Translations under genes and position numbers: made by a program | The notes under the pieces: model-generated | Seen by the model: only the letters and a program-made list of their open reading frames with translations | Databases searched by the model: none | What the model was told of the DNA's origin: nothing | Part shown: positions 24,753-33,039 of the stretch, piece by piece | How positions within the stretch are numbered: the stretch's first letter is position 1 | How the letters are laid out: each line of letters starts with the position of its first letter | IMG/VR virus record: IMGVR_UViG_3300021379_001110 | Span: 1-37,099 of that record | Source of the DNA: a virus | DNA: 37,099 nucleotides | Strand: one strand, 5' to 3'

Positions 24753-26021
24753 TTAGAAAGGATTCGAAATATCTACATCATTGGTATCTTCAACGTTGAA
24801 GAGATTCTCTTCTTCAGTAGAACCAACGAACTTCTGAACATACTGCTTAATGAACGTTCGTTCAGATTGAGCACCACCGGCATCATCGAAGAGAGGGTAA
24901 ATGGTGATTTCAGCAGCCTCAGCCAAAGAGAACCCATCGTAGAGGAGAGAACCAATCTCAACCGCAGTACGAGTTGAAAGGGAATTCGAAAGAGTCGGAG
25001 TTTCCTTCTTCAAATCGTTTCGGGTCATCGAAGTAATCTTAGCCACATTGGAAAGAACTCCGGCATCAACCGATGGGTACATCATCTGAAGGAGTTGGGT
25101 TTCCTCATCATCAGTCAGAGTATCCATCTCAATGATGGTGAATCGGTCAACAATCGCTCGGTCAAGTTGGCGAGTCGAAGTGTATTCGTTACCGATGTTA
25201 GCGGAAGCGATGAATGAAACACCTTCAGCCACCTTCACCACAGGCGAATCAGCCGCCTCATCCAATCGAAGGTAACGTTGTCCGGCATCCAACACCGTCA
25301 TCAGAATGTTGTGAGCCTCAGGGTGAGCCCGGCTAATCTCATCCAACACAATCACGGTGTTTGGAGTTTGAATGGCCTTCACAAACGGAGAAGGATTGAA
25401 CACCGTTCCCTGCTTCGTATCGAATTGGGTATTTCCAATCAGAGTAGCTCGGGGGTCTTGCGTTGAACCCAAATTGAAGATTTCCATATTGTAACCTTCA
25501 ATCGAATTGGCCGCCGCCTTAGCCGCCATAGTTTTACCACAACCAGCTGGTCCGGTCATCATAATGTTCTTACCACGGATGATGTTACGGATAAGGTACT
25601 TCCACTTCAAAGGATTCATAAAGAGCATCTGTGGTTTCAAACCACCGGCCTCATTGTGAATGAAGTTAAGAACGTTTTCTTCAACAGGCTTCTCAGCAAC
25701 TTCTGCCTGAGGAGTAACCTTCATCTCATATTGTTCCAAACCACCATTAGGTCGGTTGAAGTTTGTAACAGGTTCAGCCCCATTGAACTTCTCACCAGGG
25801 TTACGTCCAAACTCCACAGAACCTTCAGTAAGGTTTCCACTCACACGAGCTTTGAAACAATACTTAGTGGGGTTATTAGCGGCCGATACAGCACGCTTAT
25901 AAAGTGATGTTCCTTTTTCGTTAAGTTCAGGAACCAAGAACTTCTTTCCGGCTGAGTCAACCAAAATCAATTGGTTCTCTACACGCTCAACCTTCAAATA
26001 AACAAATCGCTGTGATTTCAT
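24753..26021 (-). CDS. MoxR/CobS-like AAA+ ATPase
   Basis: A 422-residue AAA+ protein of the MoxR/CobS/NorQ class. Walker A is GPAGCGKT (157-164), Walker B VIVLDE (223-228), sensor-1 Asn275 lies in SANIGNEY, and Arg residues in RQLDRAIVDRF (288-293) are candidate fingers. A ~110-residue N-terminal domain precedes it and is unassigned. MoxR-type ATPases act with VWA proteins to remodel or insert cofactors into targets; cyanophages widely carry a cobS-like gene. Here the VWA partner lies directly upstream. The gene has its own strong promoter and a visibly C-richer codon choice than its small neighbours, suggesting high expression. Cobalt chelation itself is unsupported. Confidence 0.9.
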   Translation of the reverse strand: MKSQRFVYLKVERVENQLILVDSAGKKFLVPELNEKGTSLYKRAVSAANNPTKYCFKARVSGNLTEGSVEFGRNPGEKFNGAEPVTNFNRPNGGLEQYEMKVTPQAEVAEKPVEENVLNFIHNEAGGLKPQMLFMNPLKWKYLIRNIIRGKNIMMTGPAGCGKTMAAKAAANSIEGYNMEIFNLGSTQDPRATLIGNTQFDTKQGTVFNPSPFVKAIQTPNTVIVLDEISRAHPEAHNILMTVLDAGQRYLRLDEAADSPVVKVAEGVSFIASANIGNEYTSTRQLDRAIVDRFTIIEMDTLTDDEETQLLQMMYPSVDAGVLSNVAKITSMTRNDLKKETPTLSNSLSTRTAVEIGSLLYDGFSLAEAAEITIYPLFDDAGGAQSERTFIKQYVQKFVGSTEEENLFNVEDTNDVDISNPF

Positions 26022-26062
26022 AATGTTTTGTTGTTTAATGTTTAACTCTCAATCTTACAGTA

Positions 26063-26094
26063 CTAAAGTACCACTTATTTTTCAATTTTCCAAA
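26063..26094 (-). promoter_or_regulatory. strong promoter for AAA+ gene (CTGTAA class)
   Basis: The -7 box TACTTTAG (26063-26070) and -33 TTTG (26091-26094) are 20 nt apart, followed on the minus strand by TACTGTAAGATTGAGAG, the initial-transcript motif shared with four other promoters (28317, 28620, 34049, 36411). Confidence 0.8.
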
Positions 26095-26122
26095 TTTCTA
26101 ATGTTACCAAATTGTTAAATGT

Positions 26123-28282
26123 TTATTGAAACAATTTGTTCAATGTTTTAGTCAGAGCCATCAGATTTGTAACATCCACTTTTTCTGCACTTTTACCGTA
26201 CATCTTTTGGAAGTTATCAATCGATGAGTACCCATAGTTACCTTCTTCAATATAGTAGGAGAGAACTTTGATACCCGCCTGTTGAATCTTTTTGACCTGA
26301 GCGGCGGTATGGTTAACAGCCTCTTCACCACCATAATCGATATCCCCATTGGAGAAACCAGGCCACCCATCTGAGAAGTTGATGAAGTAAGAATCAACAC
26401 CTTTGTTGGTGTTGGTAATCTCACTCAACACAGATTCGAAACACAATCCCTCAGGTGTAGTACCACAGGGGTTAAGGTATTTGAACAATTGTTGAATCTT
26501 AGAGAACTTATCCTTACGAGAATCGTATGCAATCAACATCAAAGGTTGAACCGATTGATGTGTCCCACCACCTTGCTGAATCGAACGATAGGAAATAACC
26601 ACATCAAGGTTGGAGGTCATTGAAGCCGCCTTAGCGATTGCCACAGCAGCCGTTTGTGAGTTACTCCACTTACCACCACCCATTGAAGAACTAGCATCGA
26701 TAGAGATGTGAACAAAGGCGGGATTATGTTTGTTAATCACAGTCTGGTCGAAGATTTGTGTATTACCCATACCCAACTCATGCAACAAGCGACCAGAGAT
26801 TCGACCATTCTTCATTCGAGGAGTAACCAGCGAACGTTCTTCGTTACGGAGCTTCAACTTCTTACCAAGAATAGTTCCCAATGTGATTCCCTTACGAACA
26901 GCCTCATCATTATTATCCACACGATAGGAATATGAACTAACCATATCAAGCAATCCGGCATCAACGAGGTTCTTACTGAAGTTACGAACAATCATTACAG
27001 GTGTCTGTTTATCGGTTTTCCAATAACGACCCGATTGGTAATCCTTACCAGCCAACTTCTCTTCAACACCAGCCTTAGTCAGAGAATCCAATTTAGATGC
27101 ATCATTCTTTGTAACTTTCTTCTTAGTGGTATCACCATTCTGAAACTTCTTTTGCTTCTCAATTGCTTTCTGAAGTTGATTCTTCTGACGGTCGGAAAGT
27201 TCTCCCTCACCACCATCCACTTTGTTATCACTAATCTGATTGTTAGAACCATCACCACCAGCGCCATTCGGATTGTAAGAAGAACGACCACTCTTCACAT
27301 CATCACCCTCTGCATCACCATTGGTATCATCCGTACCATTTGAATCCTGCTTTGATTGACCATCATTCTCAGGCCCATCGGTATTATCAGTACCATTGGT
27401 TTCGGAGTTATCACCACCACCACCGGCACCTTCACCACCTTCTTGCTGATTCTCATCGGAATCACCATCGCCATTACCATCACCTTGCTCAGGTTGTTCG
27501 GATGGTGGAAGTGAATCTTCAATCAATTGGAAGATTTCAACAGCCAAATCCAAAGACATTTGAGTCGAAGTCAATCGGTTGATGTTTCGTAAATCCATCA
27601 GATTCCATACCTCACGCAACTGAGCCAATGCATCCAAATCACGATTCTCATTGGTGATGTTGATGATACGGAACATATAAGATTCCCAATCCTCAGTACG
27701 ATACTCAGAAGATTTCAATCCCTTATCGATAATCTTAGCGTTGAAGTACTTATCGTACATCGCATGGTAGTAACCTTTGTAGCCAGGCGAAGTAGTGTAA
27801 ATGTAGTTATCGATTCGGCGGTCCTCAACCACATTGAGCAAATCCTTAACCAAACCATTTACCCAATTCTGAGTTTGAATGATATCACCACCAAAGTGCT
27901 TATCAGCCAATTGTTGGTAGTAATCGTAACTCAAACCGATATCGTTCATACGAATTTTCTGAAGAGTATTGAAGTCGGTTAACTTAATGTGAGAGCCCTC
28001 ATGCAATGCCAACCCAACGGTTGAATCGAAATCCTTATCATCCATCTTAGCGGAGATGGTTACTTCCTTACCATCGGTATAGGAATTATCACCACGCACA
28101 TCGAAGGTAACAGGAATATTATCATTGGTAACAATGTTAACAAAGTTACTAATGGCCTTCTTATAAGCCGCAAGAGCCATCAGGTTGGAATGTTTAGATT
28201 CAACCTTATCTAAGATTGTATCATCATCATCGAACAACCCATCACGGAGCCAATAGGATGAATATTTCGTTGTATCTCTCAT
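26123..28282 (-). CDS. VWA protein with HExxH motif (CobT/DUF2201-like)
   Basis: A 719-residue partner of the AAA+ protein. An HEGSH (HExxH-type) motif at about residue 94, in a LALHEGSHIKL context, resembles the putative metallopeptidase domain found before VWA domains in DUF2201/CobT-like proteins. A long low-complexity Asp/Glu/Gly/Asn/Ser linker spans about 260-345. The C-terminal VWA domain has the MIDAS DASSS near residue 527 (HISIDASSSMGGG) and NFSDGWPG later. An in-frame ATG at 28309 would give 9 extra residues, but that stretch is the promoter's conserved CTGTAAnnATTG leader, so the ATG at 28282 is preferred. Peptidase activity is possible but unproven. Confidence 0.85.
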   Translation of the reverse strand: MRDTTKYSSYWLRDGLFDDDDTILDKVESKHSNLMALAAYKKAISNFVNIVTNDNIPVTFDVRGDNSYTDGKEVTISAKMDDKDFDSTVGLALHEGSHIKLTDFNTLQKIRMNDIGLSYDYYQQLADKHFGGDIIQTQNWVNGLVKDLLNVVEDRRIDNYIYTTSPGYKGYYHAMYDKYFNAKIIDKGLKSSEYRTEDWESYMFRIINITNENRDLDALAQLREVWNLMDLRNINRLTSTQMSLDLAVEIFQLIEDSLPPSEQPEQGDGNGDGDSDENQQEGGEGAGGGGDNSETNGTDNTDGPENDGQSKQDSNGTDDTNGDAEGDDVKSGRSSYNPNGAGGDGSNNQISDNKVDGGEGELSDRQKNQLQKAIEKQKKFQNGDTTKKKVTKNDASKLDSLTKAGVEEKLAGKDYQSGRYWKTDKQTPVMIVRNFSKNLVDAGLLDMVSSYSYRVDNNDEAVRKGITLGTILGKKLKLRNEERSLVTPRMKNGRISGRLLHELGMGNTQIFDQTVINKHNPAFVHISIDASSSMGGGKWSNSQTAAVAIAKAASMTSNLDVVISYRSIQQGGGTHQSVQPLMLIAYDSRKDKFSKIQQLFKYLNPCGTTPEGLCFESVLSEITNTNKGVDSYFINFSDGWPGFSNGDIDYGGEEAVNHTAAQVKKIQQAGIKVLSYYIEEGNYGYSSIDNFQKMYGKSAEKVDVTNLMALTKTLNKLFQ

Positions 28283-28316
28283 ATGTTTCTTTTTATCTTT
28301 CCCAATCATTACAGTA

Positions 28317-30575: not shown

Positions 30576-30730
30576 TTAATCCATTCATAGTATGCCTGTT
30601 GATATGCATCAACTCTACGCATCTTTGGATTCTCTTTCATAATCTCAGAAGCAGTTTGCATTACCTCTTCTCTAAGGCCATGCCCATATGCTTCAATTAG
30701 GATTTCTTCGATATCAGTTTCAGCACTCAT
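30572..30730 (-). CDS. small hypothetical protein, 52 aa
   Basis: A short frame starting MSAETDIEEILIEAYGHGLR and ending QQAYYEWIK. It is helical and acidic at the start. The case for a real gene is the packing: its ATG overlaps the upstream stop (TAATG) and its stop overlaps the downstream start (ATGA). Function unknown. Confidence 0.65.
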   Translation of the reverse strand: MSAETDIEEILIEAYGHGLREEVMQTASEIMKENPKMRRVDAYQQAYYEWIK

Positions 30731-30876
30731 TAGTACAAAAGATTTGATACGGCGGCAGCCACAATGGTTAGAATCAACCCAACAACAGCAATAATGGCGA
30801 ACGTTTCAGAATCGATTATTTGCCTTTTAGTTTTACCCTGCTGGGATTCGTTATCACTATTAGTAAACTTTTTCAT
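30730..30876 (-). CDS. single-pass membrane micro-protein, 48 aa
   Basis: A polar N-terminus (MKKFTNSDNESQQGKTKRQI) is followed by one transmembrane helix (TFAIIAVVGLILTIVAAAVS) and a short tail. The stop overlaps the next ATG (TAATG). Its ATG lies 14 nt after the second tRNA-like RNA (30891-30962), so that structure forms the immediate 5' context of this gene. Confidence 0.65.
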   Translation of the reverse strand: MKKFTNSDNESQQGKTKRQIIDSETFAIIAVVGLILTIVAAAVSNLLY

Positions 30877-30890
30877 ATTGGTTTAATTAG

Positions 30891-30962
30891 AGCGGAAGGG
30901 TGGAACTGCCCCACCATCTCCGTACTGGAAGTACGGCGAGTTTCTCTTAACTCTTCTCCCGC
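30891..30962 (-). ncRNA. tRNA-Gly-like RNA, copy B (anticodon-like UCC)
   Basis: Exactly 72 nt with tRNA segment lengths: acceptor 7 bp (GCGGGAG/CTTCCGC), 2-nt joint AA, 16-nt D-like arm (GAGTT-AAGAGA-AACTC), 1 nt, 17-nt anticodon-like arm with loop CTTCCAG, 4-nt variable segment, 17-nt T-like arm (GGTGG-GGCAGTT-CCACC), unpaired U. Glycine identity features are present: U73, G1-C72, C2-G71, C35, C36 and U33. However the T loop is GGCAGUU instead of UUCRANY and the D loop lacks the GG pair, so it is not a standard elongator tRNA. Copy A differs by compensatory changes in every stem. No CCA is encoded. It lies inside an operon, 14 nt before a start codon. Confidence 0.75.
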
Positions 30963-30967
30963 ATTTG

Positions 30968-31039
30968 AGCGAAAGGTTGGAACTGCCCCAACTCCTCCTA
31001 TCTGGTTGATAGGCGGGTTTCTCTTAACCCTTCTCTCGC
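30968..31039 (-). ncRNA. tRNA-Gly-like RNA, copy A (tandem with copy B)
   Basis: Also exactly 72 nt with the same layout: acceptor GCGAGAG/CTTTCGC, AA, D-like arm GGGTT-AAGAGA-AACCC, G, anticodon-like arm CCTAT-CAACCAG-ATAGG, variable AGGA, T-like arm GTTGG-GGCAGTT-CCAAC, U. The D and T loops are identical to copy B, while six stem pairs covary between the copies (acceptor 1, D 1, anticodon 3, T 1). The anticodon-like triplet is ACC and position 33 is A, so ordinary decoding is unlikely. Five bases separate it from copy B. The stop codon of the 85-aa gene (31024-31026) lies in its D-like arm, so ribosomes finishing that gene would disturb the fold. Confidence 0.75.
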
Positions 31040-31281
31040 AATTTATCAATCACAGAATTATCTTTTTGAGTTTTGATGTGAGTATCCCACAACTCTCTCA
31101 TATAATCCATATGATGTTTCTGTATTTCAAATCCCATATCACCACTAAAGGTGTTCAATGAACCTGTGATTAGTGCGTTTACTATGTGTAGTGATTGCTC
31201 ACCCCCATCGGTGGTGGAGTTCTCTACTACTGCTTTTAAGTAGTGAATCTTATCGGTTATATGTACACTATCCCATTTCAT
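31024..31281 (-). CDS. hypothetical protein, 85 aa, near-leaderless
   Basis: Unrecognised, helical (KIHYLKAVVENSTTDGGEQS, HHMDYMRELWDTHIKTQKDN) and ending IDKLREKG. The ATG lies only 6 nt after the promoter -7 box, so the message would have almost no leader. The 3' end encodes LREKG-stop within the first tRNA-like RNA; copy B contains a matching remnant (MREKS-stop), suggesting that the tail and RNA were duplicated together. It is the first gene of the mgsA-thyA operon. Confidence 0.68.
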   Translation of the reverse strand: MKWDSVHITDKIHYLKAVVENSTTDGGEQSLHIVNALITGSLNTFSGDMGFEIQKHHMDYMRELWDTHIKTQKDNSVIDKLREKG

Positions 31282-31287
31282 TGATTA

Positions 31288-31319
31288 CAAATATACAAAA
31301 CATTTTTCATATATCCAAA
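31288..31319 (-). promoter_or_regulatory. Bacteroidota-type promoter for the mgsA-thyA operon
   Basis: The -7 box TATATTTG (31288-31295) and -33 TTTG (31316-31319) are 20 nt apart. Nearly the whole ~45 bp, from ATTTGGATATATGAAAAAT to ATCAAT, is repeated at 35466-35503. Confidence 0.85.
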
Positions 31320-32960: not shown

Positions 32961-32965
32961 GGTTG

Positions 32966-33039
32966 TAGGAATGACGGGACTTGAACCCATGACCTTGACT
33001 GTATAAGAGTCCTGCTCTAACCAACTGAGCTACATTCCC
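32966..33039 (-). tRNA. tRNA-Ile(TAT)
   Basis: 74 nt, acceptor GGGAATG/CATTCCT, anticodon loop CTTATAC giving TAT, which would read AUA directly rather than through the usual lysidine-modified CAT tRNA. The first anticodon-stem pair is a G-A mismatch. Confidence 0.92.

Follow-up and report, generated by a model that had tools for sequence, protein, structure and literature searches.

Paired tRNA-Gly-like RNAs of uncultivated phages appear to keep glycine identity while losing decoding features

Positions 30891 to 31039 of the IMG/VR virus record IMGVR_UViG_3300021379_001110 raise the question of why a phage should keep, side by side, two RNAs that are built like tRNA-Gly and yet look like none of the ordinary tRNAs around them. 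The DNA analyzed comprises positions 1 to 37,099 of this record, and we refer to this whole stretch as the window; both RNA units are encoded on its minus strand. An earlier note on this DNA had described two units of 72 nucleotides (nt), 5 nt apart and each following the tRNA plan, and had proposed charging without decoding as one of several possible roles. Each unit does fold alone into the cloverleaf described, and the homologues that we found strongly support, on the level of sequence, both the tRNA-Gly-like fold and the predicted combination of charging and silence in translation. The units represent a previously uncatalogued RNA family, absent from Rfam 15, which, as far as can be judged from sequence, combines a full glycine identity with the loss of decoding features. 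The reading that we favor, with middling confidence, is that they are processed RNAs recognized by the host glycyl-tRNA synthetase (GlyRS), silent in translation, and most likely acting as a decoy or a sink.

Folded alone, the 5' unit reaches -28.5 kcal/mol (z = -4.15) and the 3' unit -32.0 kcal/mol (z = -4.12), with 0 of 200 shuffles as good in either case, while both units folded together give a z of -4.4. The complementary (plus) strand folds less well (z about -2.5) and, as the promoter and the genes also lie on the minus strand, an RNA encoded on the other strand was discarded. The six differences between the two copies that had been presented as compensatory (pairs 4-69, 11-24, 29-41, 30-40, 31-39, and 50-64) are indeed so, and our covariance model R1 scores the 5' unit at 93.7 bits and the 3' unit at 101.3 bits. 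Standard finders miss both units. ARAGORN reports 10 tRNAs in the window, neither unit among them, and the Rfam tRNA model RF00005 leaves the units of the window unmatched even at an E value of ≤10. A search with all models of Rfam 15 gave no match to the units above the gathering score and, at an E value of ≤10, just two chance-like matches on the plus strand, so that identity with a known Rfam family was rejected. The RF00005 matches in 24 records do not include any core unit either. Because tRNA finders miss the units, the family has probably been overlooked in phage annotation.

Homologues were sought by pattern scans of IMG/VR, and the covariance model was then built from 16 distinct copies (IMG/VR loci and records carrying relatives are labeled here with L- and G-numbers). 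The model recovered units in 41 of 47 records tested, the window record included, and a later pattern scan added six more (L078 to L080 and L082 to L084), for a total of 47 IMG/VR viral records including the window; L009, L048, L054, and L056 were dropped as members, being chance or doubtful pattern matches. Most records hold exactly two units, and the contigs carrying them reach 252 kb. No unit was found with two patterns in the genomes of 84,980 species of bacteria and archaea, which led us to discard a bacterial origin or a host copy. The phage reference collection INPHARED gave no match when queried with the window pair; with the L031 array as query, the matches listed fell within the stretch of the array that encodes the canonical tRNA-Gly. 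We found these tRNA-Gly-like RNAs described nowhere in the literature searched, and at the sensitivity used the family looks confined to uncultivated phages. The window relatives encode MoxR-like, CobT-like, and baseplate proteins and are distantly similar to Flavobacterium phages; this similarity and the style of the promoters suggest that the phages with units probably infect Bacteroidota.

The structure is under selection throughout the family. In the gap-free seed alignment of 16 sequences, 99.7% of the stem cells are paired and 10 of the 22 pairs have changed on both sides. With 53 distinct copies aligned to the model, the paired fraction is again 99.7% and both-sided (compensatory) change reaches 15 of the 22 pairs, compared with a mean of 80.8% paired in shuffled controls and about 45 to 56% in slid structures. 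This larger alignment was fitted to the structure, and the seed is the cleaner test; both agree. Covariation thus backs a cloverleaf with acceptor, D, anticodon, and T stems, and homologues with stems that do not covary, which the earlier note had named as the outcome that would speak against it, did not turn up. Simple duplication and a coding-sequence artifact were also rejected, since the homologues covary and the 3' unit lies outside any conserved open reading frame (ORF).

The bacterial glycine identity set consists of U73, G1-C72, C2-G71, G3-C70, C35, and C36, to which a consensus triple, G10-Y25:G45, is added (PMC9976931). We counted these features in the core copies of the family, which numbered 46 distinct sequences at the first count and 50 after four further distinct copies were added. 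U73, G1-C72, C2-G71, C35, C36, A37, G10-Y25, and G45 are each present in 50 of 50, and G3-C70 in 48, which bears out the claim that glycine identity features are kept.

The features linked to decoding follow the opposite pattern when the units are compared with 124 distinct ordinary tRNAs from the loci that carry them. All 124 ordinary tRNAs have U33, none has C32-G38, and 20 have U-A at 32-38. In the core copies, the 32-38 pair is C-G in 49 of 50 and a compensatory U-A in the other one, which closes the anticodon loop. At position 33, A (27 copies) outnumbers U (21), with C and G found once each. Watson-Crick pairs at 32-38 have been described as antagonizing the codon-anticodon conformation and are also found with GC-rich anticodons (PMC6720975). 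Position 34 is U in 40 core copies and A in 10; these 10, the window 5' unit included, have the anticodon ACC, and tRNA-Gly(ACC) has been reported absent from every organism examined and also from the tRNA sets of phages (PMC8007984). With both ACC and A33, the window 5' unit does not have the anticodon loop of an ordinary tRNA-Gly. The T stem has G49-C65 and U51-A63 in all 50 core units, while 49-65 is G-U in all five canonical phage tRNA-Gly(GCC) sequences examined; G49-U65 is a strong EF-Tu pair, and its loss accompanies the escape from translation of staphylococcal tRNA-Gly (PMC4052509).

The elbow of the molecule is also remodeled. The D loop (AAGAGA) and the T loop (GGCAGUU) of the window units differ, as had been noticed before, from the loops of every one of its ten ordinary tRNAs, and they follow a family pattern of N-A/C-R-A-G-A for the D loop and GGCRG plus two freer bases for the T loop. 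In the first 46 core copies, A18, G19, A20, A21, G54, G55, C56, and G58 are invariant, the T-loop stretch G54-G55-C56-R57-G58 is present in every one, and the tertiary pair 8-14 is A-U in 44 and U-A in 2; the same D and T loops recur in the four further copies. Among the ordinary tRNAs of the same loci, U8 is found in 123 of 124, GG in the D loop in 122, and a TTCRA T loop in 121, so the units depart from the canonical set of U8-A14, G18-G19, and T54-U55-C56-R57-A58. A G19-C56 contact could still form in the units, whereas G18-U55 and U54-A58 cannot, and we infer a different, conserved elbow rather than a decayed one. There is also a divergent lineage of units (L045:1909-1980 and L063:4019-4090), located just 5' of an ATG, in which the canonical U8-A14 orientation is restored and the third acceptor pair is A3-U70.

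The two units of a pair are not interchangeable but belong to two paralogue classes: a U-A pair at 50-64 is found in 19 of the 20 distinct 5' copies versus 2 of the 18 distinct 3' copies, these copies being related and not independent. In several lineages they are part of an array with the order promoter, 5' unit, second structured RNA, 3' unit, and canonical tRNA-Gly(GCC). Of 31 loci, 9 have an exact -7 box (TAnnTTTG) 10 to 11 nt ahead of the first unit, versus 0.7 expected, several more have near variants, and many of the copies from other lineages appear to have their own Bacteroidota-type promoter.

We can therefore propose how these RNAs would work. In the window, the two units would be cut from a polycistronic transcript, while in other lineages they would be transcribed from their own promoter; the host RNase P, RNase Z, and CCA-adding enzyme would mature them, and the host GlyRS would bind and glycylate them. 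They would then be used poorly by EF-Tu and the ribosome and contribute hardly or not at all to decoding, given the anticodon loop closed by C32-G38, the frequent loss of U33, and a T stem devoid of the strong EF-Tu pair G49-U65. Lastly, they may act as a decoy or sink in the conflict between phage and host, where they would engage either GlyRS or some host factor directed against Gly-tRNA and contribute nothing to translation. Not all of these steps deserve the same trust. That the element consists of discrete trans-acting RNAs rather than a cis signal is very probable, absence of decoding is highly likely, and recognition by GlyRS is reasonably likely. For a decoy or sink rather than a glycine donor we have a slight preference, given that the distribution is patchy and phage-only and that no FemAB-type transferase was found in 24 phage records. 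The complete picture, in which virus-only, paired, translation-silent mimics of glycine tRNA with a rewired elbow occupy or are charged by the host GlyRS, or are struck by a host factor attacking Gly-tRNA, and so serve as RNA counter-defense or metabolic sink, is offered as a tentative proposal.

Several points weigh against this proposal. The decoy role is its least supported step. U33 is present in 21 of the 50 core copies, the window 3' unit included, and some of these could still decode. Glycine identity could be retained partly by descent, although acceptor pairs 4 to 7 and the anticodon stems vary freely among copies. The homologues are kin, so the sequence counts are not independent events; the host assignment comes only from the style of the promoters and from proteins distantly similar to those of Flavobacterium phages; and many records are fragments, which limits the statements that there are exactly two units and no FemAB.

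Could the units instead be working tRNA-Gly(UCC) genes with an eccentric body that decode GGA and GGG, remodeled perhaps to escape the tRNA-cutting defenses of the host? As the window lineage and most others are without a canonical tRNA-Gly(UCC), while most of the other phage tRNAs have UNN anticodons, the units would fill a decoding gap, and 38 of the 50 core copies have the loop CATCCAG or CTTCCAG, which means anticodon UCC. Phage tRNAs have been reported to evade nucleases through mutations in the anticodon loop (PMC10264068), and they resemble the units in that both are tRNA-like genes of phages that combine a modified anticodon loop with a setting of host conflict; however, those tRNAs decode, while in the units the changes extend to all of the elbow and of the features for decoding, and no nuclease is known to attack them. 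Canonical phage tRNA-Gly (GCC or UCC) share with the units the acceptor stem, U73, C35-C36, and the four-arm plan and lie in clusters with them, in many cases immediately downstream (L029, L031, L038, L044, L059, and L061), but they keep U8, A14, G18-G19, U33, and TTCRA and are found by ARAGORN and Rfam, whereas the units lose these features and are found by neither. The A33 and ACC copies, the invariant closed 32-38 pair, and the maintenance of two paralogues together also argue against decoding, and only 22% of the glycine codons in the window are GGA, compared with 64% GGT. Furthermore, L083 and L084 each hold a unit plus a canonical tRNA-Gly(UCC), and the 252-kb record G028 keeps a unit with no Rfam tRNA, so the units are not simply a phage decoder of GGA. 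We consider it unlikely that they are working tRNAs.

A comparable low probability is assigned to the units being glycylated donors for a nonribosomal transfer of glycine, carried out by an enzyme of the host or by an unrecognized one of the phage. Here the model is the non-proteinogenic tRNA-Gly of Staphylococcus involved in pentaglycine synthesis (PMC4052509, PMC8007984), with which the earlier note had compared the units. The comparison holds in kind, as the logic of keeping glycine identity while altering the elbow and the EF-Tu-relevant T-stem pairs is that of the pentaglycine-bridge tRNA-Gly (PMC4052509), and both sets of RNAs are of the tRNA-Gly type with altered D-loop G18-G19, a low tRNA-finder score, and frequent UCC anticodons. 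In detail it does not hold. In the staphylococcal tRNAs, UU or CU stands in place of G18-G19, and A49-U65/A51-U63 are found in the T stem, while the phage units have A18, keep G19 in all copies, and combine G49-C65/U51-A63 (50 of 50) with a GGCRG T loop. The staphylococcal tRNAs are charged by GlyRS, which is only predicted for the phage units, and they are chromosomal genes of a Gram-positive host, while the units are phage-only, with a closed anticodon loop and paired paralogues. Since the units fail two defining features, membership in the staphylococcal class is not claimed; on sequence grounds, they would nevertheless work like non-proteinogenic tRNA-Gly.

As for the transferase, neither FemAB (PF02388) nor Acetyltransf_6 (PF13480) was found in 24 phage records, many of which are fragments, and a host enzyme is possible, as a Bacteroides control genome contains a FemAB-family protein. 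Bacteroidota peptidoglycan is not known to carry glycine bridges, which counts against a donor role. The flanking ORFs surveyed are shared phage genes (a CobT/peptidase-like protein, a thioesterase, and a kinase), none of them tied to aminoacyl-tRNA, and this both weakens the donor and leads us to discard a neighboring gene as the explanation of the RNA. The units can also be likened, in their description, to the Bacillus cereus pseudo-tRNA tRNA-Other (PMC3399842), a tRNA-like RNA of a bacterial genomic island with no translation function and with a cellular effect.

The arrangement in the window is what gives some appeal to a cis-acting mRNA element, either a GlyRS-sensing operator or RNase P/RNase Z processing signals that cut the message between genes. 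The claimed overlap with the upstream stop and the 14-nt gap to the next ATG (30876) are both there: the UAA stop (31026-31024) of an 85-aa ORF lies at the D loop of the 5' unit, and a cut at the 5' end of this unit would remove the stop and could couple processing and translation. The MgsA-like (PF02142) and thymidylate synthase (PF00303) genes, for which a translation-coupled regulator had been suggested, lie further downstream. However, the gene directly following the 3' unit, a 48-aa ORF in the window, varies among relatives, and this change of context leads us to discard an mgsA-thyA regulator as unsupported and weakens the case for a GlyRS-sensing switch. The 85-aa ORF has 16 relatives in IMG/VR, and in 6 of them the intact gene runs straight into the next one with no trace of the RNA, which indicates that the gene does not depend on the element and that phages acquire or lose the latter as a cassette. 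In other lineages the RNAs stand in tRNA clusters directly behind a promoter, and in L008 a promoter-like sequence separates the 85-aa-type ORF from the units. A pure processing site, in turn, has no need of the invariant C35-C36-A37 and leaves it unexplained. A cis element is thus improbable, a little below the two previous explanations.

That the units are decaying pseudo-tRNAs hitchhiking in phage tRNA clusters is hardly credible despite the near-canonical intermediates of L008, L011, and L055, because nearly every stem cell pairs, compensatory change is abundant, and even divergent phages share the odd loops without variation, all of which points to purifying selection and led us to reject a pseudogene as a general explanation.

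If the favored reading of translation-silent RNAs recognized by GlyRS is right, phages would maintain RNAs derived from tRNAs, strongly selected for a synthetase identity set, and yet abandon decoding, and not every phage tRNA-like gene would serve translation. The units would provide, in nature, glycine identity elements set on a nonstandard body and be a candidate for RNA-based counter-defense or host takeover in Bacteroidota phages. The features of the window locus and of the related arrays are listed in Table 1.

Table 1. Location of the tRNA-Gly-like units and associated features in the window and in related loci
Feature	Coordinates	Strand	Basis or remarks
Putative Bacteroidota-type promoter, TTTG (31319-31316) - N20 - TATATTTG (31295-31288)	window 31288..31319	-	Read from sequence
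85-aa ORF, function unassigned	window 31024..31281	-	ORF list, translation; final codons and UAA stop inside the 5' unit
5' tRNA-Gly-like unit, 72 nt, U50-A64 class, anticodon loop CAACCAG (ACC, A33)	window 30968..31039	-	Fold, covariance model, covariation
Spacer between units, 5 nt, CAAAT on the minus strand	window 30963..30967	-	Sequence
3' tRNA-Gly-like unit, 72 nt, G50-C64 class, anticodon loop CUUCCAG (UCC, U33)	window 30891..30962	-	Fold, covariance model, covariation
48-aa ORF, ATG at 30876, 14 nt past the 3' unit	window 30730..30876	-	Read from sequence
Second structured RNA	L031:10082-10176	-	Also in L008, L010, L011, L029, L037, L038, L044, L046, L051, L059, L061, L066
Near-canonical tRNA-Gly-like genes	L011:5445-5516, L008:4964-5035, L055:1478-1551		Beside or among units

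The putative promoter of the window ends 6 nt before the 85-aa ORF and would presumably drive a transcript holding this ORF and both RNA units; its TTTG-N20-TATATTTG arrangement matches the Bacteroidota promoter consensus. The 85-aa ORF gave no match in Pfam or PHROG.

In many relatives, the place of the 5-nt spacer is occupied by the second structured RNA, which was looked for and not found in the window. It consists of a 10-bp outer stem, TTRAAG, an inner hairpin with the loop ATAARRCCG, and then ACCGG, which is able to pair with the CCG of the loop. The outer stem has 98.5% of its cells paired and 7 of its 10 pairs changed on both sides, and the CCG/CGG pairing is invariant and would form a pseudoknot; the inner hairpin is less certain (68% of cells). 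There was no Rfam match to the L031 copy at a permissive threshold or to those of L008, L010, and L011 at the gathering threshold, and this pseudoknot-like RNA may be a second unclassified family. In two loci (L043:12418-12590 and L044:6399-6580), a small lipoprotein-like ORF (signal plus cysteine), followed by a conserved stretch (GAGTCTAGCC) and a tRNA-Thr, is placed between the 5' unit and the pseudoknot-like RNA.

The near-canonical genes of L008, L011, and L055 look like evolutionary intermediates or, alternatively, four-base readers. In L011 and L055, the anticodon loop is 8 nt long, CATTCCAG, and the T loops are normal in appearance. Descent of the units from tRNA-Gly(UCC) is likely in view of these intermediates.

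Elsewhere in the window, a MoxR-type AAA ATPase lies beside a 728-aa CobT/peptidase-like protein (24753-28309), a relative of which is found close to the RNA units in 22 loci. The anticodon UAU, stated to be missing in prokaryotes (PMC8007984), is carried by a tRNA-Ile that ARAGORN detects at positions 32965-33039 of the window and that is also present in L003.
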